NCBI GenBank assembly: GCA_946886875.1
Contig: CAMPJN010000047.1
Span: forward strand, 1-15,958
DNA: 15,958 bases
Direction of reading: 5' to 3'
From: an uncultured Pseudomonas sp.
GTDB lineage: Bacteria > Pseudomonadota > Gammaproteobacteria > Pseudomonadales > Pseudomonadaceae
The position numbers were made by a program, and so were the translations under genes. Below are positions 523 to 15,345 of this stretch, piece by piece. Position 1 is the first letter of the stretch; every line of letters begins with the position of its first letter. Below the pieces are notes generated by a model that saw only the letters and a program-made list of their open reading frames with translations, ran no database searches and was not told the origin of the DNA.

Positions 523-1941
523 TTATGCTTGTGTTGCAGTGCTGCCTGTTTCCGTCGCCGTGCCGTGCGCGCTTGGCGGGGCGAGTACTGCCCAGCCGCG
601 CACCTCATGCTCGAGGGTGGAATCTTTGTAGATGGTGAAATCCGGGCAGGCGAAGCGGATGCTGCCGACGCGGGTGAGGACCGGTTTGTAGCTGGGCAGG
701 CCGGCCTTGCCGAGGACGCAGTGGATCTGCTTGATCGCCCTGAACAGCTTGACGTTGAGCTGCGCCTGGCTGTCGCCGATCATCTTGTACAGGTGCTCGC
801 GCTCGACCCAGCCCAGGCTCATCGGGTCGCTCGCGGCGCTGCCGCGATCCTGCAGTTGTTGGCAGAATTCGCGGGCCAGGAGCAGCAGCACGTAGTGATG
901 CACGCGCTCGCCGAGGTCCAATTGCTGGCCAGCCACTTCGATCAACAGTTGGACGTGCCAATCATCGGCGCTGACCTTGAAGATAAAGCGTGGTGTGGCG
1001 GCGCTAGGCGGCTGTGCCTCGCCGCGCAGCGGCGCGAACGCCTCGTGACTCGCCTCGGGGCCGGGTCGATGGGCGCCGCAGTCCACGGGCAGGCCGGTGA
1101 GCTGGCCGATCAGTTCGGCATAGCGGTTCGCCTGGCGGACCTCGGGAATGGCGTAGTTGCTCAGCAGTTGGTACAGCGCCAGCGGGCTTTCCGGCGTCGC
1201 CTGGGCGAGTATCGCGCCATGTACGAAGTGGATGCCATTGGCGATCGCCGACATGCTGTTGGCCAGGGCCAGACCGTGTTTGTCGTTACCTTTGAAGGCC
1301 AGTGCCGGGCCGCTCTCATGCAGCTCCGGGAACTGCTCGAGCAAGTGGGTCAGCAGGTTGCGCACGCCCAGCGGGGTCAGGCGCGCCTGCTGGTCGCACA
1401 GGGTGATTCTATCGATGGCGAATTGACGGGCGAACTCGATGCAAGCGTGCAGCTGCGAAGGCAAGGCGCTGGGCGCATCCTGCAATATCAGGCACAGCGC
1501 TGCGCCGCACTGATGCAGCTCGGTGACGCTGTCGACCAGGGCAACCAGTTGTTCGCCGATCTGTTCGCAACTGCGCCCGCCAAGCTGCACGCGCAACTGG
1601 ATGCCGCATTGCGGGTGTCGCGCCAGCAGGCTGACCAGGGGCGCCAGCTCGACGGGCTGAGGGGCGTCCAGCCAGGGTCGTAGTTGCGGCGCATGGGCAC
1701 GTAGTTGCGTCAGTGCCGCATCCAGTGCCCATTCGTCCGTTTGCAGACGACCCAGGGCGATATCGCCGAAAGGGGTTTGCGCCAACTGCTCGATATGACG
1801 CTTCCAGGCCTGATTGCTGTCTTCGGCCGCTAGCAGGCTGGGCGTATGGTCCACGCAGCCGCGAAACGAGGCGGGCAGCGGAAAGCGGTTCCAATCGCTG
1901 GAAGCGACAAGCTGGGTTGGGGCGGTGGTCTGCCGGTTCAT
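523..1941 (-). CDS. Degenerate HMGL/LeuA-like barrel fused to a winged-helix domain
   Basis: The 472-residue product appears to have two parts. Residues about 20-300 resemble the HMG-CoA lyase / isopropylmalate synthase TIM barrel (PF00682 type). ILQDAPS (152-158) followed by CDQQARLTP (182-190) matches the EDA...DTxGxxTP pattern, and FKGNDKHGLALAN (216-228) matches the HxHNDxGLAxAN strand-helix. The metal-binding histidines of HxH are replaced (FKGND), and no RDGxQ motif is visible near the N-terminus (FRGCVDHTPS instead), so catalysis as an HMGL enzyme looks lost. Residues about 318-440 (GWVEREHLYKMIG, NVKLFRAIKQI, VGSIRF) resemble the winged helix often found next to FHA domains. A pseudoenzyme sensor joined to a DNA- or protein-binding module is my inference. 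The start has a strong AAGGAG site, 18 bases after the RarD-family gene stop. The C-terminal tail (455-472) is low complexity. Confidence 0.8.
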   Translation of the reverse strand: MNRQTTAPTQLVASSDWNRFPLPASFRGCVDHTPSLLAAEDSNQAWKRHIEQLAQTPFGDIALGRLQTDEWALDAALTQLRAHAPQLRPWLDAPQPVELAPLVSLLARHPQCGIQLRVQLGGRSCEQIGEQLVALVDSVTELHQCGAALCLILQDAPSALPSQLHACIEFARQFAIDRITLCDQQARLTPLGVRNLLTHLLEQFPELHESGPALAFKGNDKHGLALANSMSAIANGIHFVHGAILAQATPESPLALYQLLSNYAIPEVRQANRYAELIGQLTGLPVDCGAHRPGPEASHEAFAPLRGEAQPPSAATPRFIFKVSADDWHVQLLIEVAGQQLDLGERVHHYVLLLLAREFCQQLQDRGSAASDPMSLGWVEREHLYKMIGDSQAQLNVKLFRAIKQIHCVLGKAGLPSYKPVLTRVGSIRFACPDFTIYKDSTLEHEVRGWAVLAPPSAHGTATETGSTATQA

Positions 1942-1959: not shown

Positions 1960-2901
1960 TCAGACAACACGGGTGGGTTGGGCTAAACGCTGCGATCTGT
2001 GCTGCCAGCCGGCCAGGGCCACGCTCAGCAGCAGGCCGAGCAGGGCGCACCAGATCAGGCTGAAGCCGGCCAGCTTGAGCGCGCCGACCGGTTCGCCGAA
2101 GAGCAGCACGGCAAGCAGGAACATCAGCGTTGGATTGAGGTATTGCAGGAAGCCCACGGTGGTCAGCGACAAGGCTTTCACCGAGGCGATATACAGCCAC
2201 ATGGGCAGGGTGGTGATCAGGCCGAGGGCGATCAGCAAGGCCCAGTCGAGGCCGCTGTACTGGACTGCGGCATCGGCATTCAGGCTGCTATAGAGCAACA
2301 GGGCGCTGGCGGGTATTGCCGCCAGGGCGGTTTCCAGGGTCAGGCCGAGCAGCGGCGCGACCGTCGAGCGTTTCTTCACCGCGCTGTAAAGGGCGAAGGT
2401 GGCGGCGATGGTCAGGCCGATCCAGGGCACTTGCAGGCTGTGTTCGCCGGCCATGATCAGTATTACCCCGGCCAGGCACAGCGCGCCGGCCAGCCATTCG
2501 CGCCGCCCGCTGGGCTCGCGGAACAGCCAATGGGCAAGCAGCACGCTGAGCAGCGGCGACAGGTAGTAACCGAGGCTGGCATCGAGCAGCCGATCCTGGG
2601 CCACCGCCCAGATCACCAGAAACCAGTTGCAGGCGATCAAGGCGCTGCTGAGCAGTAGCAACGCCAATTGCCGCGACGAGCCGAGGATGCGCCAGGCTTG
2701 GCCCAGGGCGCCGACGACGGCGAGGCCGAGCATGCACCAGACCAGCGAGCCGAGCACCCGGTAGGCGAACACCTCCCATACCGGGAGATGGGCCAGCAGC
2801 TTGAACAGCAGGGTGGCCGAAGCCCACAGCAGGAAGGCGCTGATATTCAGCAGCAGCGCTTGCCGGGGGCAGAGGGGCGTGGCGATCAGGGCGTTGGGCA
2901 T
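1960..2901 (-). CDS. rarD: RarD/EamA-family inner-membrane permease
   Basis: A 313-residue, strongly hydrophobic protein with about ten membrane segments, the usual layout of the drug/metabolite (EamA) transporter superfamily. RarD hallmarks are visible: CNWFLVIWAV, then LDASLGYYLSPLLSVLL, then the PWIGLTIAATFALYSAVKK block, GLTLETALAAIP, and GFLQYLNPTLMFLLAVLLFGEP near the C-terminus. It should sit in the inner membrane; substrates of this family are mostly unknown, so export of the operon product or import of a precursor are both guesses. Two starts are possible: GTG at 2913, directly abutting the TGA of the reductase gene, or ATG at 2901. I prefer ATG 2901 because a GAGTGAG stretch lies upstream and nothing is lost from the first helix. 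Translation is probably coupled to the upstream gene. The symbol names the family, not proven orthology. Confidence 0.85.
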   Translation of the reverse strand: MPNALIATPLCPRQALLLNISAFLLWASATLLFKLLAHLPVWEVFAYRVLGSLVWCMLGLAVVGALGQAWRILGSSRQLALLLLSSALIACNWFLVIWAVAQDRLLDASLGYYLSPLLSVLLAHWLFREPSGRREWLAGALCLAGVILIMAGEHSLQVPWIGLTIAATFALYSAVKKRSTVAPLLGLTLETALAAIPASALLLYSSLNADAAVQYSGLDWALLIALGLITTLPMWLYIASVKALSLTTVGFLQYLNPTLMFLLAVLLFGEPVGALKLAGFSLIWCALLGLLLSVALAGWQHRSQRLAQPTRVV

Positions 2902-2913
2902 GCTCGGGCTCAC

Positions 2914-3906
2914 TCAGTCGCGCGTCAGGCTGACCTTGCCCAATGCCTGGCCGGATTCGGCATAGACATGGGCGGAGGCAATTTCGCGGAAGCTGAAATG
3001 CTGCTCGTCGAGCAACGGCCGTAAAACCCCGCGCTCCGCCAGCTTGGCGGCTTCACGCAGGATGAAACCGTGGTGCTCCATGCCCTCGCCAGTGGCCATC
3101 GGCCAGGTCATGTTGACGCAATGCACGGTCTGCTTACGCGCCCAGGCCACGGTCATGTCCAGCTTGCCCATGGCCAGCACGGTGATCACGCTACCGCCGA
3201 CGCGGGTGGCCAGCAGGCTCTGCTCGAAGGTTTCGCCGCCGACCGTATCGACCACCACATCGAAGCCGACGCCGTCGGTATAACGCTCGACGTACTGGGC
3301 GACATCCTGTTCGCGGTAGTTGATGGTTTCGTCGGCGCCGAATTCGCGCGACAGGGCGGCTTTTTCCGCACTACTGACTGTGGTGTAGACAGTCGCGCCC
3401 TGCCATTTGGCCAGTTGTGCGGCGACATGACCGACTCCGCCAGTGCCACCATGCACCAGCACGCGGTCGCCCGGCTTGATCGCCGCTGTATCGATCAGCC
3501 CTTCCCAGGCGGTGAGCACCACCAGCGGCAGCACTGCGGCTTCCGCCATGCTCAGGTTGTTTGGCTTGGGTGCCACCAGGGCGGCATCAACCAACATATA
3601 GTCGGCCAATGCGCCCTGCCGGCCACGTACGCCACCGGCACAACCATAGACCGCGTCGCCTTCGGCGAAACCCTGCACGTCAGCGCCGACCGCGCTTACC
3701 GTGCCGGCGAAATCGCCATGCAGGATGGCCGGGAAATCATGGGTAAAACCAGGGATATCGCCCCGGCGCAACTTATAGTCCAGCGGGTTGATGCCGCTTG
3801 CCGCGACCTTCACCAACAGCTGGCCGGCAGCGACTTGCGGGGTCGGCAGCTCGACTTCTTCGAAGACATCGGCCGTGCCGAATCGATTGATTACATAAGC
3901 TTTCAT
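2914..3906 (-). CDS. Zinc-independent medium-chain NADPH:quinone-type oxidoreductase
   Basis: The 330-residue product has the full MDR layout: an N-terminal GroES-like domain (about 1-125, with VAASGINPLDYKLRRG and HGDFAGTV) and a Rossmann domain with the nucleotide-binding GGTGGVG at 153-159. The clustered cysteines of the structural zinc lobe of classical alcohol dehydrogenases are absent, which fits the quinone oxidoreductase / enoyl reductase branch. The expected reaction is NAD(P)H-dependent reduction of a quinone or an activated double bond. Its ATG overlaps the TGA of the hydrolase gene by four bases (ATGA), so it is translationally coupled. A role reducing an unsaturated intermediate of this operon's product is possible but not shown. 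A second MDR of the same class is encoded at 11.9 kb. Confidence 0.9.
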   Translation of the reverse strand: MKAYVINRFGTADVFEEVELPTPQVAAGQLLVKVAASGINPLDYKLRRGDIPGFTHDFPAILHGDFAGTVSAVGADVQGFAEGDAVYGCAGGVRGRQGALADYMLVDAALVAPKPNNLSMAEAAVLPLVVLTAWEGLIDTAAIKPGDRVLVHGGTGGVGHVAAQLAKWQGATVYTTVSSAEKAALSREFGADETINYREQDVAQYVERYTDGVGFDVVVDTVGGETFEQSLLATRVGGSVITVLAMGKLDMTVAWARKQTVHCVNMTWPMATGEGMEHHGFILREAAKLAERGVLRPLLDEQHFSFREIASAHVYAESGQALGKVSLTRD

Positions 3907-4727
3907 TGCAGGCTCTCACAGGTTTGGCTGATGAAGGTGTCCATCAGGTCATTGAACCGGGCTGGGTCCTCTACATGCGGGCAGTGACCGCAGTCGTCGA
4001 ACAGGACCACCGCCAGATCGGCGGGGGCGAACATGCCTGGACGGGCGCAGGCATTGGCGTCGATAAACAGGTCGTTGCGGCCCTGCAACAGCACCGCGGG
4101 TACGCCGCTGGCGGCCAGCAAGGCCACTTCGTCGGCGAATTCGCCCTTGCCCAGACTGACGCCCAGGGCGGCGCGAACCTGTGGATCGGTGGCGCGGATG
4201 TAATTCGCCAGGGTGTCGAGCTGCGCCTGCTGCAAACGTGCCGGGTTGGCAAAGGCGCGGGCCAGTCGCACCACCTGCTCGTCATCCAGGTCGGCCTGGA
4301 ATACCAGGCCGCCGGTGGGCTCCGGGTGGAATAGTTGTGCGGCGTTGACGCTATTGAACGGCGCCGCACCGATCAGGCCGAGCCCGCGGATGCCGGGCAG
4401 GCGCGGCAGCGCTTCGAGTGCCGCGTGGCCGCCCAGGCTGTGGCCGAAGATCAGGTAATCGTGCAGCCCGGCGCGCTCGACGAACTCCACTAACACATCG
4501 GCGTAACCGGCAAAGCTGTAATGCTCGGCCGGCGCCGCGGCGGACAGCCCATGGCCGGGCAAGTCCAGCGCCAGCAGGCGGTAGCGCGTGCCGAAAGCGG
4601 CGAACTGCGTAGTGAAGGCGGCTGCCGATGAGGAGTTGCCGTGCAGCAGGATCACCGTGGGCCCCGGTCCTTCGCTGTCGAAGTAATGCAAAGGGCCGGC
4701 GGATAACAGAATGCGTGCGGATTTCAT
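3903..4727 (-). CDS. Alpha/beta-hydrolase
   Basis: A 274-residue single-domain alpha/beta hydrolase. HGNSSS (29-34) gives the oxyanion-hole loop, GHSLGG (95-100) the nucleophile elbow with Ser97, QGRNDLFI places the likely acid at Asp219, and CGHCPH supplies His248, in the usual order. A lid-like helical stretch lies between about 125 and 200. It should hydrolyse an ester, thioester or lactone; the substrate cannot be read. The ORF stays open upstream to 5144, but homology begins at MKSARILL, whose ATG overlaps the acyltransferase stop as ATGA; this fixes the start. The ribosome site there is weak (GGGGC), consistent with re-initiation after the upstream gene. The pairing with a condensation-type acyltransferase suggests proofreading or release of the acyl product (inference). 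Confidence 0.88.
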   Translation of the reverse strand: MKSARILLSAGPLHYFDSEGPGPTVILLHGNSSSAAAFTTQFAAFGTRYRLLALDLPGHGLSAAAPAEHYSFAGYADVLVEFVERAGLHDYLIFGHSLGGHAALEALPRLPGIRGLGLIGAAPFNSVNAAQLFHPEPTGGLVFQADLDDEQVVRLARAFANPARLQQAQLDTLANYIRATDPQVRAALGVSLGKGEFADEVALLAASGVPAVLLQGRNDLFIDANACARPGMFAPADLAVVLFDDCGHCPHVEDPARFNDLMDTFISQTCESLQ

Positions 4728-5986
4728 GGCGTTGCCCCGGAAGTGGATATGAAGTCGAGCAAGGTCTGGTGCAATTTGCTTTTCATCAGGCGAATGCGTG
4801 CCTCGTCCATCAGCGGCACGGGGAAGGTGAAGCACAGCGACAGCGCCGAGGCGAAACCGGTGACATGCAGGGCCACGGCGAAATTGCCCGCCACCCGCGA
4901 GGCCGCATTGGCGTAATCGAGCAACTGAAAATGGCGGTAATGCGGAAAGCTGATGGTGCCGTGATTGGTCAAGGCGATGCCGTGGGCGAAACTCTGGTGC
5001 GAGCGCAGCGAGTGGATGCGTGTGCGTGTAGCTTCCAGGTCCTGCTCGGGTTGGCGTTTGGCCAGGTGCGGCAGGCTGGCATGCAATTGGCGCTGATAAT
5101 CCAGCGCGAGGGCGACCGGCGAACGGGCGGCCGCGGCCAGGCAATGGCTGACAACGCCGATAAAGCAGCCGATGGAGGCGTCGCTAATGGGCTGCGCCGC
5201 ACGTTGGCGCAGCGAGACCGCGGTGTTGATGCGAATCTGCTTGCCCAGATCGACTTCGTTGGCGGCCTTGAGCAGCGCCCCGGCCAGCAGTGAATTGAGG
5301 CTCAGACCCTGGGCCTTGGCCAGTCGGCGCAGCTCGTCGCTGATCTGCTTATCGAGCAGCAACCGACGTACACCGGTGCGTCGCCGCGCCAGTGGCACGC
5401 TTTGCAGAAAACGCACGGTACCCGGCGTTTCGCAAGGCGGCAGCGCTTCCAGTGCCGGCTCCATATGGGCTTCCAGGGCGGCAACCAGCGGTTCTTGGGG
5501 GGCGCACATGGAGGCGCCCGTCTGCAGGCTTTCGCACAGGCTGAGCAGTTCGCCGAGCAGACGGGCGAGACTGACGGCATCGGCAATCGCGTGGTGACAG
5601 GTCAGCAGCAGGTGATGGCGGCTGCGATCTGCGGTGGACAGCAACAGCAGACGCCAGAGGTTGCGCTGCGGGTCGAGCACGCTGTCGAGCTGGTGTTGCA
5701 GCAGCTGCGCCGCGGTTTGCCCGCTGAGCAGGGTGTGGTTGCAGACCTTGATCTGGGCAAAAGGCACGTCGGCTTTGAAGTACAGCGCCTGCTCGCTCTC
5801 GACGATGCGGCTGCGCAACAAGGGATGGCGCCCGTGCAGTTTTTCCGCAGCGCGCTGCAGGGTGGCGGCCGATAGGGGGCCGGCGAAGCTCAGCAGGCTG
5901 GCGGTTTGGGTGCTGCCGTTGAGCTCGTGCATCACGGCCATGCTGGTTTCGATCTGGCCGAGCGGACGGCCGAGGGACTGTGACAT
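4724..5986 (-). CDS. Stand-alone condensation-domain acyltransferase (PapA-like)
   Basis: A 420-residue member of the CoA-dependent acyltransferase / NRPS condensation superfamily. The catalytic HHxxxD motif is present as HHAIADA at 131-137, preceded by LLLTC as usual; the second lobe contains INTAVSLRQR and the LTNHGTISFP strand where condensation enzymes carry their bridge motif. Length fits a free-standing enzyme such as mycobacterial PapA5 rather than an NRPS module. It would transfer an acyl group from CoA or a carrier protein to an alcohol or amine in the cytoplasm. The frame is open to 6097, and an ATG at 6001 overlaps the monooxygenase stop as ATGA. I choose ATG 5986 because AGGAG lies 7 bases before it. 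No carrier-protein, ketosynthase or adenylation gene is in the window, so the acyl donor is unknown. Confidence 0.85.
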   Translation of the reverse strand: MSQSLGRPLGQIETSMAVMHELNGSTQTASLLSFAGPLSAATLQRAAEKLHGRHPLLRSRIVESEQALYFKADVPFAQIKVCNHTLLSGQTAAQLLQHQLDSVLDPQRNLWRLLLLSTADRSRHHLLLTCHHAIADAVSLARLLGELLSLCESLQTGASMCAPQEPLVAALEAHMEPALEALPPCETPGTVRFLQSVPLARRRTGVRRLLLDKQISDELRRLAKAQGLSLNSLLAGALLKAANEVDLGKQIRINTAVSLRQRAAQPISDASIGCFIGVVSHCLAAAARSPVALALDYQRQLHASLPHLAKRQPEQDLEATRTRIHSLRSHQSFAHGIALTNHGTISFPHYRHFQLLDYANAASRVAGNFAVALHVTGFASALSLCFTFPVPLMDEARIRLMKSKLHQTLLDFISTSGATP

Positions 5987-5997
5987 CTCGACACTCC

Positions 5998-7554
5998 TCA
6001 TCCGGCCAGTTGCTCGGTTTCTGCCGAGACATCGCTCAGGTAGAAGCGCTCGATCAAGGACGTCAGCGTGGAGGGCTCGTCCAGCCGGCCGCGGCAATCG
6101 ATGAACAGGTCCGGGCGGACCAGGAGGAATTCGCCTTCGCCGAGTTTCCAGGCGTTACGCAGGCGTTGTTGCGGATCGGCCAGAGGGTTGCCGAAAGGCA
6201 TGCCGCTAGGCTGTGCGCCCAGCCAATGGATATTCAAACGGCTATTCAGGGGTTCGAGCAGGGCCAGCAGTCGGTTGAATGCGGCACGTTCTGAGGGGCC
6301 GGGCGGGAGAATCAGCAAGCTGTGCCGGCCCTGGCCGAAGCGGTCCGCACCCTCGACGTAGGGCAGTAGGCAACCAGCCTGCAGTTCGCTGCGCGGAGTG
6401 CCATAGCGCAGGGTCAAACCGGCGGTTTCCAGGGGGAAACGGCGGATGAATTCACGGTTGCGCAGGCGCGGCAGATAAGCCTGCTCGTCGGCTGGCAGGT
6501 GGCGGTTGAGGCGGGCGATCAGCGAAGTGGATTTGTCGGTCTTGGCCAGCAATGTGCGAGTGTTCTGCTCGCGCTCTTCGACGTAGGACTGCAGCAACTC
6601 GTCGTTGCCCAGGCCGTTGAGGGTGTAACCGAGCTTCCAGCCGAGGTTGAAGGCATCGGCGATACCGGAGTTCATGCCGAAGCCGCCGATCGGACTGAAC
6701 AGATGGGCGGCGTCGCCGGCGAGAAATACCCGGCCGCGGCGGATGGTCGCCGCCGAGCGGTTATAGAAGGGCGCGCTGGACAGCCAGATCGGGTCGCTGA
6801 CCTGCAGGCCGGCGATTTCGTAGCGGGCGATATAGTCGCGGATCTCGTCCAGGCTCGGCTTATAGCCGGGAGCGCATTGCTCGTTCACCTTGATGACGAT
6901 GCGGTGATAGCCATCCTTGAGCGGCAACAGAATCAGGAAGCCGTCGTCGCGGATGAAATAGAAACCTTGTTCCTTGGCGCCCTGCCATTCGATGCGCAGG
7001 TCGGCGAGGATGAAGTGCATGTTGTAGTCGTAACCGCTGAAGTCCAGTTGCAGCTCGTTGCGAACCTTGCTCAGGCCGCCATCGCAGCCCACCACATAGT
7101 CGAAACGCTGGCGCTCGTGGCCATTGCCGTTGCGCAACTCGACCTCCACGCCGCCGTCGTGCTGGCGCAGGCCAAGCAGCTCGCAGTCGCGCTCGATGGT
7201 GTGACCGAGCTCGTTCAAGCGCTGCTCCAGTACCTGTTCGGTTTCCGGTTGCGGCAGCATCAGAAAGAACGGGAACTTGCTCGGCAAACCGGCGAAACGG
7301 GCACGCATCAGCGGCCGGTTGTCGTAGACCAGGTTGATCACTTCAGTTTTGTGGCCGAGGCCGACCAGGGTGTCGGCGACGCCCAGATCGTCGAGCAGGC
7401 TCAGTGAGGCCGGGTTGATGCTCAGGGCCTTGGAGCCGGAGGGTTGTTTATGGCGTTTTTCGATCAGCCGGAAACCGATGCCGAAACGTTGCAGCTGCAA
7501 GGCAAGAGTCATACCGGTGGGGCCGCCCCCGACGATCAATACATGCGGTTTCAT
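5998..7554 (-). CDS. FAD-dependent aromatic-hydroxylase-type monooxygenase
   Basis: The 518-residue product is a class A flavoprotein monooxygenase of the p-hydroxybenzoate / phenol hydroxylase fold. The N-terminal dinucleotide-binding loop is GGGPTG (9-14) with the acidic end IEKR; the DG motif is GCDGG (156-160); the GD motif with the FAD-ribityl contact is GDAAHLFSPIGGFGMN (280-295). The last 100 residues form the thioredoxin-like tail seen in larger members (for example VRPDLFIDCRG). It uses NAD(P)H and oxygen to hydroxylate or Baeyer-Villiger-oxidise a small molecule. Although the frame opens earlier, homology begins at MKPHVLIV, and GAGGAA lies 9 bases upstream. It starts 64 bases after the aldo/keto reductase and its stop overlaps the ribosome site of the acyltransferase. 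Substrate unknown; annotation as a UbiH/PheA/TfdB-like protein is equally fair. Confidence 0.93.
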   Translation of the reverse strand: MKPHVLIVGGGPTGMTLALQLQRFGIGFRLIEKRHKQPSGSKALSINPASLSLLDDLGVADTLVGLGHKTEVINLVYDNRPLMRARFAGLPSKFPFFLMLPQPETEQVLEQRLNELGHTIERDCELLGLRQHDGGVEVELRNGNGHERQRFDYVVGCDGGLSKVRNELQLDFSGYDYNMHFILADLRIEWQGAKEQGFYFIRDDGFLILLPLKDGYHRIVIKVNEQCAPGYKPSLDEIRDYIARYEIAGLQVSDPIWLSSAPFYNRSAATIRRGRVFLAGDAAHLFSPIGGFGMNSGIADAFNLGWKLGYTLNGLGNDELLQSYVEEREQNTRTLLAKTDKSTSLIARLNRHLPADEQAYLPRLRNREFIRRFPLETAGLTLRYGTPRSELQAGCLLPYVEGADRFGQGRHSLLILPPGPSERAAFNRLLALLEPLNSRLNIHWLGAQPSGMPFGNPLADPQQRLRNAWKLGEGEFLLVRPDLFIDCRGRLDEPSTLTSLIERFYLSDVSAETEQLAG

Positions 7555-7618: not shown

Positions 7619-8617
7619 TTAGATGTTGGTGCCTTTGAGAATGGCGTCCGGATAGCGTTTGCCGGCAATCGCCTGGGGCATGAATATCTGGCCCAGCATT
7701 GCCGAGGCGGTGGCATCGAGCTTGATCGTCTGGGCGTCGAAGTTGCCGGCCAGGTACTTGATGCGCTTGGTGCCGGGGATCACGTGAAGGTTTTCGTACT
7801 GATCCAGCAACCAGGCCAGGGCCAGTTGCGCGGAGGTGCAGCCCAGCTCGTTGCTCAGCTGTTCGAGGGCCTTGACCAGTTGCAGGTTGCTATCCAGGTT
7901 TTCACCCTGGAAACGCGGCAGCTTGGCGCGGAAGTCGCTGTCGGCGCTGGCCTGTTCGATGTGTTCCTTGGTAATCGCGCCAGTGAGAAAGCCGCGGCCC
8001 AGCGGGCTGTAAGCCACCAGGGCGATATTCAATTCTTCGAGGGCTGGCAGCGTGTGCTCTTCCAGGTCACGGCTCCACAGCGAATATTCGCTTTGCAGGG
8101 CGGCGATCGGGTGAACGGCATGGGCTTTGCGCAGGGTCTCGACCGATACTTCGGAGAGGCCGATGGCCTTGATCTTGCCTTCCTGCACCAGCTCGGCGAG
8201 GGCGCCGACGGTTTCTTCGATCGGCGTGTTGGGGTCGCGGCGATGGACGTAGTAGAGGTCGATGCACTCGGTGTTGAGGCGCTTGAGCGAGGCTTCGCAG
8301 GCTTTCTTGACGTAGTCGCGCGAGCCGTCGATCAGCAGGTTGTACTTGTCCGCCGGGTCGCGGTAGATGCCGAACTTGCTGGCCAGCAGCACTTCGTCGC
8401 GACGGCTGCCCAGTTGCTTGATGAATTTGCCCAGCAGCTCTTCGTTATGGCCGCGACCGTACATATCTGACGTGTCGAAGTGACGGTAGCCGAGATCGAG
8501 GGCGGCGTGCAGGGTTTCCAGGGATTGCGCGTCGTCGGTTTCGCCGTAGAACTCGCTCATGCCCATGCAACCCAAGCCCACGGCCGGGACACTCTTATTC
8601 GCCAGCGTTCTGTTCAT
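7619..8617 (-). CDS. Aldo/keto reductase
   Basis: A complete 332-residue aldo/keto reductase of the IolS / pyridoxal-reductase-like branch. The catalytic tetrad is visible: Asp48 and Tyr53 (FDTSDMYG), Lys81 (LLASKFG) and His125 (YYVHRRD). The NADPH-binding C-terminal part (AYSPLGRGFLTG, then VIPGTKRIKYLAGN) is intact. It should reduce an aldehyde or ketone with NADPH in the cytoplasm. The frame can be extended to a TTG at 8629, but the ATG at 8617 has a GGAG site 8 bases upstream and is the better start. It is the first gene of the leftward run and its upstream region carries a palindrome also found before the EthD gene. It could be a pathway enzyme or a general carbonyl-stress reductase; the neighbours do not settle this. 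Confidence 0.93.
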   Translation of the reverse strand: MNRTLANKSVPAVGLGCMGMSEFYGETDDAQSLETLHAALDLGYRHFDTSDMYGRGHNEELLGKFIKQLGSRRDEVLLASKFGIYRDPADKYNLLIDGSRDYVKKACEASLKRLNTECIDLYYVHRRDPNTPIEETVGALAELVQEGKIKAIGLSEVSVETLRKAHAVHPIAALQSEYSLWSRDLEEHTLPALEELNIALVAYSPLGRGFLTGAITKEHIEQASADSDFRAKLPRFQGENLDSNLQLVKALEQLSNELGCTSAQLALAWLLDQYENLHVIPGTKRIKYLAGNFDAQTIKLDATASAMLGQIFMPQAIAGKRYPDAILKGTNI

Positions 8618-8649: not shown

Positions 8650-8833
8650 CGCTACGGCGGCCGATGGATGAGGCTGCACGTTACCCAGGCCGCGGCGCGG
8701 GCATCACTGTTCGAACGGACAGGTTGGCCGGCAATGACGCCAGGTAGCGCGGAACGGACCGCTGGCGTTGAGGTCGGCGGGCTTGTTGGCGGAAGTGTTT
8801 GGCGCGCAAAACAGCTGTCGCTACAGCGGCCGA
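8650..8833 (+). repeat. Pair of 15-bp direct repeats (CGCTACRGCGGCCGA)
   Basis: CGCTACGGCGGCCGA at 8650-8664 and CGCTACAGCGGCCGA at 8819-8833 differ at one base and lie 169 bases apart, flanking most of the intergenic region. They might be regulator sites or marks of an old insertion; no inserted gene remains between them. Confidence 0.4.
8708..8721. promoter_or_regulatory. Putative operator, palindrome TGTTCGAACGGACA
   Basis: A nearly perfect palindrome (one mismatched pair) centred about 97 bases upstream of the aldo/keto reductase start. It matches, at 13 of 14 positions, the perfect palindrome TGTCCGAACGGACA found before the EthD gene at 11847-11860. Its size and symmetry fit a TetR-family operator, and a TetR gene lies between the two sites; which protein binds is inference. 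Confidence 0.5.
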
Positions 8834-8929: not shown

Positions 8930-8955
8930 AAAAAAGCAAGGGAGGCGAACCTCCC
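8930..8955 (-). terminator. Rho-independent terminator of the AfsA-like/HAD operon
   Basis: Read on the minus strand: stem GGGAGG, loop TTCG, stem CCTCCC (8940-8955), then TTGC and six Ts (8930-8935). It lies about 32 bases past the HAD gene stop, which makes the two-gene unit discrete and separates it from the reductase-led run downstream. Confidence 0.8.
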
Positions 8956-8987: not shown

Positions 8988-9674
8988 TCAGGCGGCCTCG
9001 ATAATGCTCCAGTTACGCTGCTGGCAGAGATCGCGAGAGCCGGCGTCGGGGTTGACCATTATCGGGTAGCCGACCTGTTCGAGCATCGGGATATCGGAGA
9101 TGTCATCGCCGTAGGCATAACAGTGTTGCGCTTGCAGGTTGTGTTCGCGGATGAAGGCGATCACACCTTCGGCTTTGCCCTGGCCAATGCTCGGCTGGCC
9201 GGTCAATTGCCCGGTATAGCGGCCGTCCTTGACCTCCAGCGGTGCGGCGATCATGAAGTCGGCACCGAGCTCCTCGGCCAATGGCGCGAGAATCGCCGCG
9301 AAGGAGCCGGAAACCAGCACGATGCTGGCGCCCTGGCGTTGGTGCCAACGGATCTCATCGCGCATGCGGGCGAAGAACAGGCCCTCCTCGCGGCGTACCT
9401 GGGTGTACCAGGCACGGCCCAGGTTGTTCACCAGTTCGACGTCGATACCGTCATAGATGCTGTAGTAGAAGCGATTGATCGCTTCGCGCGGTTGCTCTTC
9501 GGCGATCATCCGGGTCAGCGTCTTGCGGTACTCCACTACTCGCGTCGATTCGCCGATGCTCAGGTAGTCGATCATGTAGTCGAGGAAGCTGAACATGCTC
9601 TTGATGCTGATCAGGGTGCCGTCGACATCGAAGAATGCCGACCAGCTGCCGGTGTTTTCAGGCACGTTTCTCAT
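8988..9674 (-). CDS. HAD-IB family phosphatase
   Basis: The 228-residue product has all four HAD motifs: motif I FDVDGT with nucleophile Asp16 and Asp18; motif II VLVSGS with Ser122; the motif III lysine at GQGKAEG (Lys167); motif IV YGDDISDIPML (Asp190, Asp191, Asp194). The helical cap between about 28 and 105 and the overall size fit the IB group (SerB and relatives), which dephosphorylate small molecules or, in some members, lipid intermediates. Its ATG has a GGAG site 8 bases upstream and lies inside the end of the AfsA-like gene (17-bp overlap), so the two proteins are made together. By analogy with butyrolactone synthesis it may remove the phosphate from an AfsA-type product; a PSPase-like housekeeping role is the alternative. 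Confidence 0.9.
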   Translation of the reverse strand: MRNVPENTGSWSAFFDVDGTLISIKSMFSFLDYMIDYLSIGESTRVVEYRKTLTRMIAEEQPREAINRFYYSIYDGIDVELVNNLGRAWYTQVRREEGLFFARMRDEIRWHQRQGASIVLVSGSFAAILAPLAEELGADFMIAAPLEVKDGRYTGQLTGQPSIGQGKAEGVIAFIREHNLQAQHCYAYGDDISDIPMLEQVGYPIMVNPDAGSRDLCQQRNWSIIEAA

Positions 9675-10407
9675 GGGCGATCTCCGGGTTCAGTTCGCTG
9701 AGAATTGCCTGTTGGGCCAGGCCCGCTTCCTTTTCCGCGATCAGGCTGTCGGGGTAAGTGGAGAACTTGGTCCTGATCACGCAGCAGGTCTGCTGGGCCT
9801 GAATCACCGACATACGCACTTCGAAACGCTGCGAGTTGTTGCGTTCGCTGATCCGGTGTTCGAGTACCTCGTAGAGGATGCTCATCGGCAGTGGGAAGAC
9901 GAAGCGCTGGTATTCGACGTCCATATTGTTGATCACGAAGTAGCTGCTTTCGGCCTCGTCCTGCAAATAGAAGGCTTCGCTGACGGCGAGGAAGGTTTGC
10001 CGCGCGGCCTCGGTGAGCACCATGCCCTGGATGTGCTGGCCGGTGATGTGGTCACTCATCTCGGCGCAGCGTTCGTCGAGCAGCACGTCGACCTCGAAGC
10101 TGTCGTGGCTGAGGCGGCGCGGTACGCTGATCATCGAATTCTGCGCCTGGTGCTTGTGCGCCAGCTCGCGACCGGCCTTGGCCGGTTTGGCGAAGTCGGC
10201 GAGCCAAGGCTTTTTCAGCCGTGCGGTTTTTTCCAGGAGGCGGCTGATCTGTTCTTCGGAGACGCCCTGGCCCAGCTGGAAGCGCAGGTTCGGGTGTATC
10301 AGGTCGCCATCGAGGATGGCCTCCAGTTCGCTGACGGCCATTACATGGGTGTTTTCGGCGAACAGTTTGAATTTATCGCCAACGATAAAAATTCTTTCCA
10401 CAGACAT
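9658..10407 (-). CDS. AfsA-like hotdog protein (butyrolactone-synthase type)
   Basis: The 249-residue protein contains a stretch that I read as an AfsA hotdog domain: SVPRRLSHDSFEVDVLLDE (94-112), corresponding to the family's vhR...fxVxvxLtd strand, then the helix GMVLTEAARQTFLAV (128-142) with the conserved E..RQ signature (Glu133, Arg136, Gln137), then YFVINNMDVEYQRFVFPLP. Streptomyces AfsA/ScbA condenses a beta-ketoacyl-ACP with dihydroxyacetone phosphate, but those proteins are about 300 residues with two repeats. Here only one clear repeat is visible after a roughly 90-residue N-terminal region that I do not recognise. Function may therefore differ. AAGGGAA lies 7-8 bases before the ATG. 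The gene overlaps the HAD phosphatase gene, and a TetR gene lies upstream on the same strand. Family call is from motif reading, not a profile search. Confidence 0.72.
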   Translation of the reverse strand: MSVERIFIVGDKFKLFAENTHVMAVSELEAILDGDLIHPNLRFQLGQGVSEEQISRLLEKTARLKKPWLADFAKPAKAGRELAHKHQAQNSMISVPRRLSHDSFEVDVLLDERCAEMSDHITGQHIQGMVLTEAARQTFLAVSEAFYLQDEAESSYFVINNMDVEYQRFVFPLPMSILYEVLEHRISERNNSQRFEVRMSVIQAQQTCCVIRTKFSTYPDSLIAEKEAGLAQQAILSELNPEIAHEKRA

Positions 10408-10466
10408 GGCGGGTTCCCTTAGCTAGTGGCCTTGAAAAGCGAAGATGCCGGATGGTTTAAGGCGGC

Positions 10467-10472
10467 AGTCAA
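10467..10472 (-). promoter_or_regulatory. Possible -35 element before the AfsA-like gene
   Basis: On the minus strand TTGACT lies about 60 bases before the AfsA-like start. No good -10 is seen 16-18 bases downstream (GGCATC), so the promoter may need an activator or lie elsewhere, for example at TATACA near 10590. Confidence 0.25.
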
Positions 10473-10487
10473 GGAGCCGTTCGCATC

Positions 10488-10509
10488 AGCCCGCTTCTCT
10501 AGGCGGGCT
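10488..10509. repeat. Inverted repeat in the AfsA-like upstream region
   Basis: AGCCCGC and GCGGGCT form perfect 7-bp arms around an 8-base loop. It sits between the larger palindrome at 10528 and the candidate -35. No T-run follows in either direction, so it is more likely a leader hairpin or protein site than a terminator. Confidence 0.4.
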
Positions 10510-10527
10510 CGGCGATGTCGCGCGGCG

Positions 10528-10555
10528 CTAGCCAGTGCTGAGCAGCATTGGCTAG
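10528..10555. promoter_or_regulatory. 28-bp palindrome upstream of the AfsA-like gene, candidate operator
   Basis: Outer arms CTAGCCA (10528-10534) and TGGCTAG (10549-10555), one unmatched G/T pair, then inner arms TGCT and AGCA around GAGC. As RNA the G-U pair completes a 12-bp stem. TTGGCTAGTG at its right edge recurs as TTAGCTAGTG at 10419-10428, next to the AfsA-like ribosome site, in the same orientation. The pair could be bound together by a regulator; the binding protein is unknown. Confidence 0.45.
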
Positions 10556-10670
10556 TGATCGCTAAAGTAGTTGCGCGGGTTGGTCGCTGTATATTTCAGA
10601 GCATTTCAGCACATAACAGCGGTGCGGTGGGACGTCGTGGGTGTGTTGCGGTAGATGCAGAGGGCGGTGC

Positions 10671-11285
10671 TCAGGCGCCAGGCCAACTGGCCATGGCCTG
10701 GCTGGCCATGGCGTGTAGCTCGGCGGCATCGGCGCCATCGCGGGCCTGGATCGACATGCCCTGGATCACCGCGCCGAAGAAGCGCGCCAGGCTGTGGCAG
10801 TTGGTGCTGGCGGGCAGTTCGCCGCAGTCCTGGGCTTGTTCGAAGCGCTGGCGGATCACGCCCAGGGTGGCGGTGCGCAAATCGCTCAAGCTTTGCGCCA
10901 TCTTGTGATGCAGGGTCGCGCTGGTCAGCAGGCCGCTGGAGACGATGCAGCCCGGCGGATGGTTGTGCGCTGTGAACTCATCGGCGGCGTTGCTCAGGAC
11001 TTGCTGGGTGAAGCTGCGGGCATCGCTGGTTTGCGCCAGCGCATGCTGGATGAAATTGCCCGGCCCTTGCAGGTAGAGGTCGACGACCTCCATGTAGAGC
11101 TGCTCCTTGGAGCCGAACGCGGTGTACAGGCTCGGCGGAGCAATGCCCATGGCATTGACCAGGTCGGCGATGGATGTGCCCTCATAGCCCTGTTTCCAGA
11201 ACAATTGGAGGGCGATGTGCAGGGCATTCTCACGGTTGAAGCTGAGGGGGCGACCCCGCCTGGTTTTTTCGTTGATTGTTTTCAT
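10671..11285 (-). CDS. TetR-family transcriptional regulator
   Basis: A 204-residue TetR repressor. After a basic arm (EKTRRGRPL) the N-terminal helix-turn-helix is typical: ALHIALQLFWKQGYEGTSI, then ADLVNAMGIAPPSLYTAFGSKEQLY. The C-terminal ligand domain (PPGCIVSSGL, LARFFGAVIQGMSIQARDGA) resembles the large group of TetR proteins linked to oxidoreductase genes; it is not a clear match to ArpA/ScbR butyrolactone receptors. ATG codons exist at 11294 and 11285. A TTGACG/TAAATA promoter ends directly against the first, so transcription should begin only a few bases before the second, which I choose. No ribosome site precedes either. Possible targets are its own promoter, the AfsA-like unit downstream, and the two genes carrying the TGTCCG palindrome; none is proven. 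Confidence 0.92.
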   Translation of the reverse strand: MKTINEKTRRGRPLSFNRENALHIALQLFWKQGYEGTSIADLVNAMGIAPPSLYTAFGSKEQLYMEVVDLYLQGPGNFIQHALAQTSDARSFTQQVLSNAADEFTAHNHPPGCIVSSGLLTSATLHHKMAQSLSDLRTATLGVIRQRFEQAQDCGELPASTNCHSLARFFGAVIQGMSIQARDGADAAELHAMASQAMASWPGA

Positions 11286-11294
11286 AGCGGTCAT

Positions 11295-11480: not shown

Positions 11481-11786
11481 TCAGAGGGTTTCGTCGATCT
11501 GAATGATCGGTTGCAGGTTGGTGTAGTTGGCGATATCGCCGAGGATCTTTTCACTGTGCTCGGCCATCACCTGGGCGAACTGCTCCGGAGAACGGATACG
11601 CGTATTGAGCAGGCACAAGTAGGGAGCGCGGGAGCCGTCGACGGCCTGAATGCCGCGACGTACTTCGGTGCTCAGGACATTATCGCCGAGTAGCTCGAGC
11701 ATCATCGGGATATGGCTGTCGCGGTAATAGGCGAAGTCGAAATGACCGTCGGGGTCATTCGGATAGAGCACGGTGACGCAGTACAT
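11481..11786 (-). CDS. EthD-family small protein
   Basis: A 101-residue protein with the ferredoxin-like alpha-beta fold of the EthD family: VTVLYPN as the first strand, then the conserved FAYYRDSHIPMM with the HIP motif, and AEHSEKILGDIANYTNLQPIIQI at the C-terminus. EthD proteins are small dimeric, mostly uncharacterised proteins, known from ether-degradation clusters and found next to oxidoreductases. Length is normal and the gene is complete; AGGAG lies 7 bases before the ATG. It is separated from the oxidoreductase gene by about 116 bases that hold a perfect 14-bp palindrome, and precedes the TetR gene. Regulation by that TetR protein is a reasonable guess. Confidence 0.9.
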   Translation of the reverse strand: MYCVTVLYPNDPDGHFDFAYYRDSHIPMMLELLGDNVLSTEVRRGIQAVDGSRAPYLCLLNTRIRSPEQFAQVMAEHSEKILGDIANYTNLQPIIQIDETL

Positions 11787-11840: not shown

Positions 11841-11867
11841 CGCCAGTGTCCGAACGGACAGCTGGCG
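11841..11867. promoter_or_regulatory. Putative operator: palindrome TGTCCGAACGGACA with CGCCAG/CTGGCG flanks
   Basis: The core at 11847-11860 is a perfect palindrome, and flanking CGCCAG and CTGGCG extend the symmetry with a single bulged base. It lies 54-80 bases before the EthD start and about 40 bases past the oxidoreductase stop. The core recurs at 8708-8721. With no T-run it is a weak terminator, so an operator is more likely; it could still fold as RNA at the end of the oxidoreductase message. Confidence 0.55.
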
Positions 11868-11902: not shown

Positions 11903-12880
11903 TCAGCGAACCTGCACCACTACCTTGCCCACGGCCTTGCGCTGGCCCAGGGTGTCGATAGCTTCGCCCGCTTGCGCCAGGGGGAAGGTCTGCGATACCA
12001 GCGGCTTGAGCTTGCCTTCGCCGTGCCAGGCGAACAGCTGCTGGAAGTTGGCGGCGTTGTCCGCCGGTTGGCGCTGGGCGAACGCGCCCCAGAACACGCC
12101 GACCACCGCGGCACCCTTGAGCAGGGTCAGGTTGACCGGCAGCTCGGGGATGCGTCCACTGGCGAAACCCACCACCAGCAGGCGGCCATTCCAAGCGATG
12201 CTGCGGATGGCCAGGTCGAACAGGTCGCCGCCCACCGGATCGTAGATCACGTCGGCACCCTGGCCGTTGGTCAGGCGTTTGACTTCGTCTTTCAGGTTGC
12301 TGTCGCTGTAGTTGATCAGCTCATCGGCCCCGGCGGCCTTGGCTACTTCCAACTTTTCAGCACTGCTCGCTGCGGCTATCACTTTGGCGCCCATGGCTTT
12401 ACCTATCTCCACTGCGGCCAGGCCGACTCCGCCGGAAGCGCCGAGCACCAGAAGGGTTTCGCCGGGCTGCAGATTGGCGCGTTGCTTGAGCGCATGCATC
12501 GAGGTGCCGTAGGTCATGCCGAAGGCAGCCGCGGTGGCGAAATCCATGCTCGCCGGGATCGGCATGACGTTGTAGCCGGGCACCGCCACTTCTTCGGCGA
12601 AGCTGCCCCAGCCGGTCAGCGCCATCACCCGATCACCGACTTTCAGGTGGCCGACTTTCTCACCCAGTGCCTTGACCACGCCGGCCGCTTCGCCGCCGGG
12701 GGAGAACGGAAACGGCGGCTTGAACTGGTATTTGCCTTCAATGATCAGGGTGTCGGGGAAGTTGACCCCGGCCGCATGGACTTCGAGAAGGACTTCGGTC
12801 TTCTTCGCTTCGGGGCTGGCGACTTCTTCCAGTACCAGGGTTTCGGCTGGGCCGAAGGCTTTGCATAGCATGGCTTTCAT
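11903..12880 (-). CDS. NADPH:quinone oxidoreductase, zinc-independent MDR
   Basis: The 325-residue product is a complete quinone-oxidoreductase-type MDR protein: GroES-like N-terminal half (VHAAGVNFPDTLIIEGKYQ, PFSPGGEAAGVV) and Rossmann domain with GASGGVG at 147-153; DPVGGDLFDLAIRSIAWNGR and WGAFAQR are typical of the branch. It transfers hydride from NADPH to quinones or activated alkenes. The frame runs upstream to 13090, but MKAMLCKAFG begins the homology and AGAGGA lies 8 bases before that ATG. It has its own promoter and diverges from the FliL-like gene. I recall the equivalent pair in other Pseudomonas chromosomes, so this is likely a core gene and not part of the accessory pathway. 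It is distinct from the MDR at 2914-3906. Confidence 0.92.
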   Translation of the reverse strand: MKAMLCKAFGPAETLVLEEVASPEAKKTEVLLEVHAAGVNFPDTLIIEGKYQFKPPFPFSPGGEAAGVVKALGEKVGHLKVGDRVMALTGWGSFAEEVAVPGYNVMPIPASMDFATAAAFGMTYGTSMHALKQRANLQPGETLLVLGASGGVGLAAVEIGKAMGAKVIAAASSAEKLEVAKAAGADELINYSDSNLKDEVKRLTNGQGADVIYDPVGGDLFDLAIRSIAWNGRLLVVGFASGRIPELPVNLTLLKGAAVVGVFWGAFAQRQPADNAANFQQLFAWHGEGKLKPLVSQTFPLAQAGEAIDTLGQRKAVGKVVVQVR

Positions 12881-12920
12881 CGGGCTATTCCTCTGCGAAT
12901 GATGGCTAGGGTCGGCTTGC

Positions 12921-12948
12921 AGTGTAGGTACGAGGGGCCTGTGGTCAA
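12921..12948 (-). promoter_or_regulatory. Sigma-70-type promoter of the quinone oxidoreductase gene
   Basis: Minus-strand -35 TTGACC (12943-12948), 16-base spacer, -10 TACACT (12921-12926), about 40 bases before the ATG. A 14-bp palindrome, CATGGCTGGCCATG (12953-12966), lies just upstream of the -35 and could be a regulator site. Confidence 0.55.
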
Positions 12949-12989
12949 CGAGCATGGCTGGCCATGATGGATGTGTATAAGCGCAGGGC

Positions 12990-13018
12990 TTGGGCCAGGG
13001 CCCGGCTGTGGCTATGCT
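12990..13018 (+). promoter_or_regulatory. Probable promoter of the FliL-like gene
   Basis: Plus-strand -35 TTGGGC (12990-12995), 17-base spacer, -10 TATGCT (13013-13018). The predicted RNA start leaves a leader of about 22 bases containing the GGAGGAAA ribosome site. Confidence 0.5.
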
Positions 13019-13047
13019 ATGGCTCGACCCTTGGAGGAAACGCCCCT

Positions 13048-13458
13048 GTGAAAGTCTGGATCGCATTGCTGCTCGCCCTGTCCCTGCCATTGCTGGCGCA
13101 GGCCGAAGAAGACCCGAAAGACGAAGAAAGCGCTGCGCCGGTAGTGGCCTACATCAGCCTGTCTCCCGCACTGGTCGGTAACTTCGGTTCCGGTCCGAAA
13201 CTCAAGTTCTTCAAGGCGGATATTTCCCTGCGGGTGACCGGCGCCGATACCGAGGCTACGGTCAAGCATCATGAGCCGCTGATTCGCAATCAGTTGGTGA
13301 TGCTGTTCTCCCAGCAGACCGAAGCCACCATGGCTGCGCCCGAGGCCAAGGAAAACCTGCGGGTGGAAGCGCTCAAGCAGGTGCAGGAGGTGTTGACGCA
13401 GGAGGAGGGCAAGCCGCTGGTGGAAGACCTGTTGTTCAATAACCTGATCATCCAGTAG
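13048..13458 (+). CDS. Small exported FliL-like protein
   Basis: The only plus-strand gene. The GTG at 13048 follows a strong GGAGGAAA ribosome site, which decides this start over ATG codons further upstream. The 136-residue product begins with a signal peptide (KVWIALLLALSLPLLAQA, cleavage before EEDP). An acidic linker follows, then a FliL-like domain: YISLSPALVGNF, LKFFKADISLRV, HHEPLIRNQLVMLFSQQTEATM and a C-terminal LLFNNLIIQ. True flagellar FliL keeps an uncleaved membrane anchor and stabilises the stator; this version looks secreted to the periplasm and no other flagellar genes are nearby. FliL-like paralogues of this kind are common in Pseudomonas and of unclear role. The end overlaps the diguanylate cyclase gene by 11 bases. 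Confidence 0.88.
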   Translation: MKVWIALLLALSLPLLAQAEEDPKDEESAAPVVAYISLSPALVGNFGSGPKLKFFKADISLRVTGADTEATVKHHEPLIRNQLVMLFSQQTEATMAAPEAKENLRVEALKQVQEVLTQEEGKPLVEDLLFNNLIIQ

Positions 13459-15301: not shown

Positions 15302-15345
15302 AGATGGCCTCAAAGGTTCATCTAATTAAATAGCACAGCGCCATT

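Follow-up and report, generated by a model that had tools for sequence, protein, structure and literature searches.

A nine-gene AfsA cluster of Pseudomonas and marine bacteria, putatively for an exported butenolide-type product, with a regulator candidate of unusual architecture

Described systems and the locus analysed

The AfsA/ScbA/BarX systems of Streptomyces (A-factor, SCB) combine an enzyme of family PF03756 with a HAD phosphatase, an oxidoreductase partner and a nearby TetR gene, and AfsA-type enzymes occur well outside actinomycetes. The stretch of DNA described here (the window; all 15,958 nucleotides of contig CAMPJN010000047.1, assembly GCA_946886875.1, from an uncultured Pseudomonas sp.) carries genes of these kinds, which a model working from the sequence alone had read as a possible butyrolactone-type signal system (the original prediction). 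The AfsA and HAD genes belong to a set of nine genes that keeps one order and orientation in 13 loci and that we take, with a probability of about 0.6, to be a biosynthetic gene cluster, together with its putative control, for a small molecule of butenolide type that is tailored and exported. AfsA genes in Gram-negative bacteria were already known; the nine-gene order, a "dead-barrel" regulator candidate and two DNA elements were not found described in the open-licence papers searched.

The window AfsA protein differs from Streptomyces ScbA/BarX proteins in having a single AfsA stretch, and the window proteins lie far under the ScbA/BarX and ScbR model cut-offs. The window HAD protein is 36% identical to that of a ScbA/BarX cassette on a Streptomyces plasmid, which we take to be of the mmf (methylenomycin-furan) type; its record names ScbA/BarX, an acyl-CoA dehydrogenase and HAD. 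The middle gene of that cassette is of the acyl-CoA-dehydrogenase family, whereas the window cluster has an aldo/keto reductase (AKR) and a flavin monooxygenase, so MmfH was rejected as a counterpart of the flavin enzyme.

The sabA-sabP-sabD genes of S. ansochromogenes encode an AfsA-like enzyme, a phosphatase and a dehydrogenase, and butenolides were obtained from them in both E. coli and Streptomyces (PMC6930871); relative to these genes, the window cluster adds six conserved genes, including another kind of regulator candidate. Among Gram-negative bacteria, the phosphorylated-butenolide-synthase domain of gladiostatin biosynthesis in Burkholderia gladioli is AfsA-like and condenses 3-ketothioesters with dihydroxyacetone phosphate (DHAP) in vitro, but it is a domain that ends a polyketide synthase, whereas the window AfsA is free-standing (PMC7756379). 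The Chromobacterium subtsugae operon has, like the window, an AfsA gene followed by a HAD-IB gene, and the two are reported to be co-expressed with efflux genes under quorum-sensing control (log2 rise 8.9 and 9.2); its neighbours (DUF2165, MarR and efflux genes) differ from those in the window (PMC12114271, which also cites the 12-phyla survey of Creamer et al. 2021). A Pseudomonas A-factor-like cluster with a P450 gene (Ps664, PMC8719888) was considered and is different from the nine-gene cluster.

The best studied Gram-negative relative found is the megaplasmid cluster of Ruegeria pomeroyi DSS-3 (SPOA0342; PMC7426152), and it points to a weapon. Diffusible killing of diverse bacteria depends on it, its afsA is needed for transcription of the cluster, and, as in the window, a single-domain AfsA (36% identical to that of the window) has HAD-IB (37% identical) and AKR genes close by. 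Unlike the window, it carries a tautomerase gene, two hypothetical genes and LysR regulators, its AfsA lies in another clade, and the Ruegeria locus gave no match to any of three members of the window cluster, namely the flavin and condensation-type enzymes and the last gene.

A nine-gene cluster kept in one order

The nine genes, in order from the AfsA gene onward, are as follows.

9658..10407, minus strand: AfsA-family (phosphorylated-butenolide-synthase-like) protein, 249 amino acids, hotdog domain plus N-terminal alpha/beta piece (PF03756, model)
8988..9674, minus strand: HAD-IB phosphatase (TIGR01490), sharing 17 bases (9658-9674) with the AfsA gene
7619..8617, minus strand: AKR (PF00248); start by homology, longest open reading frame (ORF) from 8629
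5998..7554, minus strand: FAD-dependent monooxygenase (PF01494, 230 bits; GGGPTG and GDAAH motifs); start by homology, longest ORF from 7716
4724..5986, minus strand: condensation/PapA-type acyltransferase (PF00668 and PF16911; HHAIAD motif); putative start
3903..4727, minus strand: alpha/beta-hydrolase (PF12697); putative start, longest ORF from 5144
2914..3906, minus strand: quinone-oxidoreductase-like MDR reductase (PF00107 and PF13602), with a 4-base overlap with the hydrolase gene
1960..2913, minus strand: EamA/RarD-type membrane transporter, probable exporter (PF00892 and TIGR00688, above cut-off)
523..1941, minus strand: regulator candidate, 472 amino acids, homocitrate-synthase-like TIM barrel plus C-terminal winged-helix-like domain (residues ~318-453)

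These nine genes are found in the same order and orientation in six Pseudomonas-type and seven Moritella/Thalassomonas/Pseudoalteromonas-type loci. The first ten loci comprise the window, four others of the Pseudomonas genus, one each of Moritella and Thalassomonas and three of Pseudoalteromonas; the three later ones come one each from the P. fluvialis family, the Ps. rubra genus and the family of the Thalassomonas genome. Identity to the window proteins is 68-92% in the closest compared locus and falls to 29-67% in the non-Pseudomonas loci; for the AKR, four Pseudomonas-type loci reach 81-92% and five further loci 66-67%. Hydrolase and reductase are fused into one protein in the Moritella, Thalassomonas and Pseudoalteromonas loci, the hydrolase part is spread over two overlapping ORFs in L157, and 1.4 kb separates the AKR from the flavin gene in L156.

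In a tree of 89 AfsA rows (four left out, L002, L060, L066 and L074, which are short or from a Streptomyces plasmid), the 13 nine-gene clusters form a 14-row clade (support 100/99) together with a variant locus, L159, which falls inside it, so that the 13 alone are not one clade. The occurrence of the cluster is patchy: of 398 genomes sampled from the P. fluvialis genus, 7 have AfsA, and 4 of these 7 have the nine-gene cluster. The variant itself (L159:821-14423, from a genome of the Thalassomonas family) carries the dead-barrel protein and the AfsA-HAD pair, with MFS, SDR, dienelactone-hydrolase-like and ketosynthase-III-like genes beside the flavin enzyme and AKR.

Two further window genes, an MDR reductase (11903-13090) and a CHASE-GGDEF protein (13448-15313), adjoin the cluster and are common to L096, L097 and L098 at 74-87% identity; a counterpart of the MDR reductase is also present in L156. 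These common neighbours indicate that the cluster occupies the same chromosomal place in L096, L097, L098 and L156, but not in the P. fluvialis locus L003.

The AfsA protein and its phosphatase

A profile search places PF03756 on AfsA residues 84-214 (48 bits, cut-off 24), the E..RQ motif is present as EAARQ at 133, and the predicted structure (mean pLDDT 91) has a single hotdog domain with FabZ and thioesterases as best matches (TM up to 0.77 by target length); the secondary structure of the model sets residues 1-75 apart as an alpha/beta piece. The HAD protein scores 158.8 bits against TIGR01490 (cut-off 98.3) and has the DxDxT motif as DVDGT. The original prediction was right to describe an E..RQ-type AfsA hotdog protein whose gene is overlapped by a HAD-IB gene by 17 bases, and to call the AfsA domain shorter and single-repeat: there is one AfsA stretch in the window protein and two in the one Streptomyces ScbA/BarX control. 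What it called a dedicated terminator after the pair is seen in the window as a terminator-like hairpin:

8940..8955, minus strand: terminator-like hairpin 3′ of the HAD gene, GGGAGG-TTCG-CCTCCC followed by TTGCTTTTTT; not kept in relatives

Between 8500 and 11500, five terminator-like sites were counted against 2.5 expected (sd 1.6). A scan for a stem plus T-run in the gap between the HAD and AKR genes of nine relatives gave nothing in five (L096, L097, L098, L004 and L005) and weaker candidates in four (L003 and L007-L009), so the hairpin is not a conserved part of the cluster.

The last gene, a regulator candidate

The ninth gene is present in all 13 clusters and in variant L159, and its product is a regulator candidate common to all 13. 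Among 89 AfsA loci it occurs only in the ten nine-gene ones. At E 1e-40 or better it was found in 2 of 398 genomes (P. fluvialis family), and three other samples gave 4 of 108, 1 of 11 and 3 of 196, counts that include the genomes used as centres; all ten genomes with a full-length copy across the four samples have AfsA genes (two were taken as L008 and L009).

The N-terminal part of the protein matches homocitrate synthase (E 1e-10, sequence search), is also homologous to citramalate synthases, and is modelled as a TIM barrel like that of homocitrate synthase (pLDDT 80). In the alignment, the two histidines of the HxH metal site of that barrel are replaced in the window protein and its family. 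The best conserved region is the C-terminal part, which shares 41% identity with the end of an FHA protein; its predicted strands, three helices and hairpin are in an order that fits an OmpR-like winged helix, with no significant sequence match to the libraries. For the full-length model, all 50 matches listed are to the barrel and none to the C-terminal part.

The protein has 21 database relatives listed, itself included, from the best 7996 candidates scored; these listed matches do not include the members from Moritella, Thalassomonas and Pseudoalteromonas, which are 26-29% identical. Its profile matches in 22 of 394 genomes of the Ps. rubra order: two matches are full-length, one (G588) covers the barrel only, and in the other 19 approximately the C-terminal part alone is matched, in open frames of mostly 293-360 amino acids. 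Among five such C-terminal-domain proteins that were scanned (L126, L127, L128, L136 and L137), three have an FHA domain and two a receiver-like domain that scores below its cut-off; L129-L135 and L138-L143 were matched only. From these sequence comparisons, the C-terminal domain of the FHA, receiver-like and ninth-gene proteins looks like an undescribed output domain family.

Direct repeats upstream of the AfsA gene

One of the two DNA elements lies about 185-210 bp upstream of the AfsA gene.

10593..10618, plus strand: repeats spaced by 10 bp, ATTTCA-GAGC-ATTTCA-GCAC-ATAACA

The strict motif ATTNCA-N4-ATTNCA is present upstream of AfsA in nine of the first ten clusters, with GTTTCA in Moritella, and it occurs once elsewhere in the 198 kb of these ten loci. 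None of 79 other AfsA loci has it upstream of AfsA, and their 1.49 Mb contain 3 matches in all; it arose in 0-4 of 1000 dinucleotide shuffles for each of the ten upstream stretches. With one mismatch allowed per hexamer, an array is found in all 13 clusters, including L156, where the strict pattern failed and four copies are present. Upstream arrays number 19 at spacing 10 (overlapping sub-arrays counted) and 0-2 at any other spacing between 7 and 15, and over whole loci there are 41 at spacing 10 against 7-27 at other spacings. The orientation of the repeats in Pseudomonas is opposite to that in the rest. Since they are common to clusters with and without a TetR gene, the repeats probably belong with the last gene rather than with TetR.

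Proposed pathway and product

Two cluster-linked regulators would accompany the enzymes, and by analogy with described systems the butenolide-type product class is assigned at moderate confidence. The AfsA protein would condense a 3-oxoacyl thioester from fatty-acid synthesis with DHAP to a phosphorylated butenolide, the phosphate would be removed by the HAD enzyme and a carbonyl reduced by the AKR. Oxygenation by the flavin enzyme, acylation of a hydroxyl by the condensation-type enzyme, and trimming and reduction by the hydrolase-reductase pair could follow, and the EamA protein would export the product. This chemistry is proposed from precedents, namely the Burkholderia DHAP condensation, the sabAPD butenolides and the 36% identical HAD protein of the Streptomyces ScbA/BarX cassette. 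As for control, the last gene product would use its C-terminal domain to bind the 10-bp repeats that precede AfsA, its dead TIM barrel may serve as a ligand pocket, and in Pseudomonas the added TetR protein would repress the EthD-TetR and reductase operons (see below). The original prediction had the pair making a related lipid-glycerol or furan signal, a nearby reductase supplying the missing step; the AfsA/phosphatase core is indeed the one expected for butenolide-type chemistry, and the AKR gene does follow it, but the conserved unit is nine genes and not two.

Several observations weigh against this reading of product and control. The window AfsA scores 20.4 bits against the ScbA/BarX equivalog NF041195 (cut-off 200) and aligns weakly to a ScbA/BarX member (best E 0.004), so that its substrates could differ from those of the ScbA/BarX enzymes. 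In Pseudoalteromonas L007-L009, the GDAAH pattern was not found in the flavin enzyme, and the reductase half of the fused protein is weak, with the scanned glycine motif not found (in L007, ADH_N alone is above cut-off). No match to a sigma-70-type promoter was found upstream of AfsA, and the literature search found no assay of any enzyme of the nine-gene cluster. With regard to the last gene product, the model has a pTM of 0.57, Pfam, NCBIfam and the PDB gave no significant sequence match for its C-terminal domain, and the assignment of that domain as an output domain that probably binds DNA comes from its domain company and predicted secondary structure. The repeat motif was chosen after the first loci had been inspected; among the three later clusters, two of which are close relatives of earlier ones, the strict repeat is present in two and the relaxed one in three, and none was found in variant L159, although the regulator is present there.

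A butenolide-type product could act outside the cell in more than one way. That it is a secreted antimicrobial, with control serving production and self-protection and not signalling between cells, seems quite plausible to us, if somewhat short of an even chance. The killing that depends on the Ruegeria cluster (PMC7426152) speaks for it, and the probable exporter and several tailoring enzymes of the window cluster would suit such a role; the Ruegeria cluster is, however, of a different subtype, with its tautomerase, two hypothetical genes and AfsA of another clade, no immunity gene was recognised in the window cluster, and no toxicity data were found for it. As a small unit of defined genes in culturable pseudomonads and marine bacteria, with a regulator candidate of an architecture unnamed in family libraries and two candidate operators, the cluster could show whether Gram-negative bacteria have butenolide-type signalling or whether such clusters produce weapons, as the Ruegeria case suggests.

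The TetR module of Pseudomonas-type clusters

The second DNA element is a pair of palindromes that accompanies a TetR gene and its neighbour.

10671..11294, minus strand: TetR-family regulator (PF00440, TetR_N 47 bits), in Pseudomonas-type clusters only
11481..11786, minus strand: EthD-like protein upstream of TetR (PF07110, 20.5 bits, just below the 22-bit cut-off)
8708..8721, no strand: palindrome TGTTCGAACGGACA upstream of the AKR operon, TetR operator candidate (near-match counts)
11847..11860, no strand: palindrome TGTCCGAACGGACA upstream of EthD-TetR (near-match counts)

The TetR gene that the original prediction had noted upstream on the same strand is there, and so is its non-ArpA look: the protein scores 40.2 bits against the ArpA/ScbR equivalog NF041196 (cut-off 150), and its alignment to Streptomyces ScbR is limited to 53 residues of the DNA-binding part. 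EthD-like and TetR genes lie upstream of AfsA in all six Pseudomonas-type clusters, whereas no match to either was found near AfsA in the seven other nine-gene clusters. In the 398-genome genus sample, TetR orthologues 55-79% identical to that of the window are present in four nine-gene genomes (next best 46%); at E 1e-20, 215 of the 398 have weaker matches, as expected of a large family.

The palindrome TGTCCGNNCGGACA is found upstream of EthD in 6/6 Pseudomonas-type clusters with 0-2 mismatches (2 in L097 and L098) and again in the gap upstream of the AKR gene, with 1 mismatch in four of the six and 3 in L097 and L098. With at most one mismatch it matches twice in the window, against 0.03 expected, and 4 times in the 1.6 Mb of 84 other loci; this stringency retains both sites of the window, L096 and L003, a single site of L156 and none of L097 and L098. 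Since matches with 3 mismatches are common (44 in 111 kb), the AKR sites of L097 and L098 rest on their position. The two palindromes look, by sequence, like a TetR operator pair. In the HAD-AKR gaps of the other seven clusters the nearest matches have 4-6 mismatches, and a shared operator upstream of AKR in non-Pseudomonas clusters was rejected for this reason. No conserved palindrome was found upstream of AfsA, where the repeats lie; the candidate operators are those upstream of EthD and AKR, and the EthD palindrome sits inside a longer inverted repeat with the potential to fold into a hairpin.

These results bear on the idea, close to that of the original prediction, that the product is a quorum-type signal and TetR its receptor, as in A-factor/ArpA. 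The link of TetR to the cluster and to the palindromes in all six Pseudomonas-type loci, the presence of its orthologues in those genomes of the genus sample that have the cluster, and the requirement of Ruegeria afsA for transcription of its own cluster (PMC7426152) speak for it. The TetR protein, although cluster-linked in Pseudomonas, is not ArpA-like in sequence and is missing from the other seven clusters, the sites of L097 and L098 are weak, AfsA itself has no conserved palindrome and the EthD site may be part of a hairpin, and on this balance the idea is doubtful. The part of the prediction that stands is a TetR gene beside AfsA, which proves to be cluster-linked in Pseudomonas; no relative of it was found near AfsA in the other seven clusters.

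A more specific proposal, speculative and in our judgement rather unlikely, is that a Gram-negative butenolide-type signalling circuit would have as its receptor, in place of a TetR protein, a homocitrate-synthase barrel that has lost its catalytic activity and is joined to a winged-helix domain; this protein would read a pathway product and activate the synthase through direct repeats spaced by one turn, the TetR module having been grafted on in Pseudomonas. The alternative that the last gene encodes a working condensing enzyme of the pathway and not a regulator draws on the homology of its barrel to homocitrate and citramalate synthases, and is improbable given that the HxH metal ligands are replaced across the family and that the most conserved part is the domain also carried by FHA and receiver-like proteins. 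That the AfsA-HAD pair makes acyl-dihydroxyacetone or another membrane lipid, with incidental neighbours, is highly improbable: by AfsA chemistry, a first acyl-DHAP ester acted on by a phosphatase would yield acyl-dihydroxyacetone, and the hotdog part does resemble FabZ and thioesterases, but the pair's AfsA gene is in only 7/398 genomes of the genus sample, and the nine-gene order is kept across families with a cluster-linked regulator candidate and DNA elements.

AfsA-HAD pairs in other genomes

A set of 80 genome loci was collected through AfsA alone, and later counts are over 89 AfsA loci. A same-strand HAD relative (at least 60 bits) lies downstream of AfsA within 4 kb in 71 of the 80: in 42 it overlaps or is within 100 bp, in 24 it is within 1.5 kb and in 5 within 4 kb. 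In the rest it is elsewhere within 4 kb (4 loci), farther away (2) or not found (3), and two of these last three may be artefacts, as L012 stops just past AfsA and the AfsA frame of L074 is short. Since HAD played no part in the collection of the loci, the pairing is beyond chance. Within 6 kb of AfsA, counted from single-linkage BLAST families and with the ten nine-gene loci included, 46 of the 89 loci have an AKR relative and 18 have a relative of the flavin monooxygenase. A home-made TetR profile, which may miss remote members, placed a TetR-like gene no more than 4 kb from AfsA in 9 of the 89 loci, five of them Pseudomonas-type, and TetR was rejected as a general AfsA partner on this count. 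The AfsA-HAD pair is thus a common unit, with a reductase often alongside and a TetR gene rarely. The original prediction had held that a pair occurring everywhere with no TetR or reductase partner, and with no metabolite change on its loss, would speak against a signal system; the pair does prove widespread, and most loci lack a TetR gene near it, but a reductase is often near.

A family of small proteins is found near AfsA in 23 of 89 loci (L001, L006, L014, L016-L022, L024-L029, L034, L037, L039, L060, L066, L071 and L078), whose hosts include roseobacters, Erwinia, Enterobacter and Serratia. A scan of one member, that of L022, identified it as a tautomerase, and the family marks the subtype of the Ruegeria killing cluster.

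In Methylobacter tundripaludum SV96 (L075, 8066-20265), an AfsA cluster has relatives of the HAD, flavin, AKR, condensation-type and hydrolase genes in another order. Its HAD and AfsA genes are separated by those of an acyl carrier protein (ACP) and an ALAD-like protein, and a further protein was judged by eye to be ligase-like. This gene content suggests ACP-bound acyl donors. The tundrenone cluster of Methylobacter was considered, and no LuxI or tun gene was noticed on reading the ORF starts of L075. Three loci of the Pseudomonas genus sample (L099, L100 and L101) have a distant AfsA (31-33% identical) in another context, with no HAD match within the fetched stretch. Two Bartonella contigs (L047 and L048) carry AfsA with a HAD relative 938 bases downstream.

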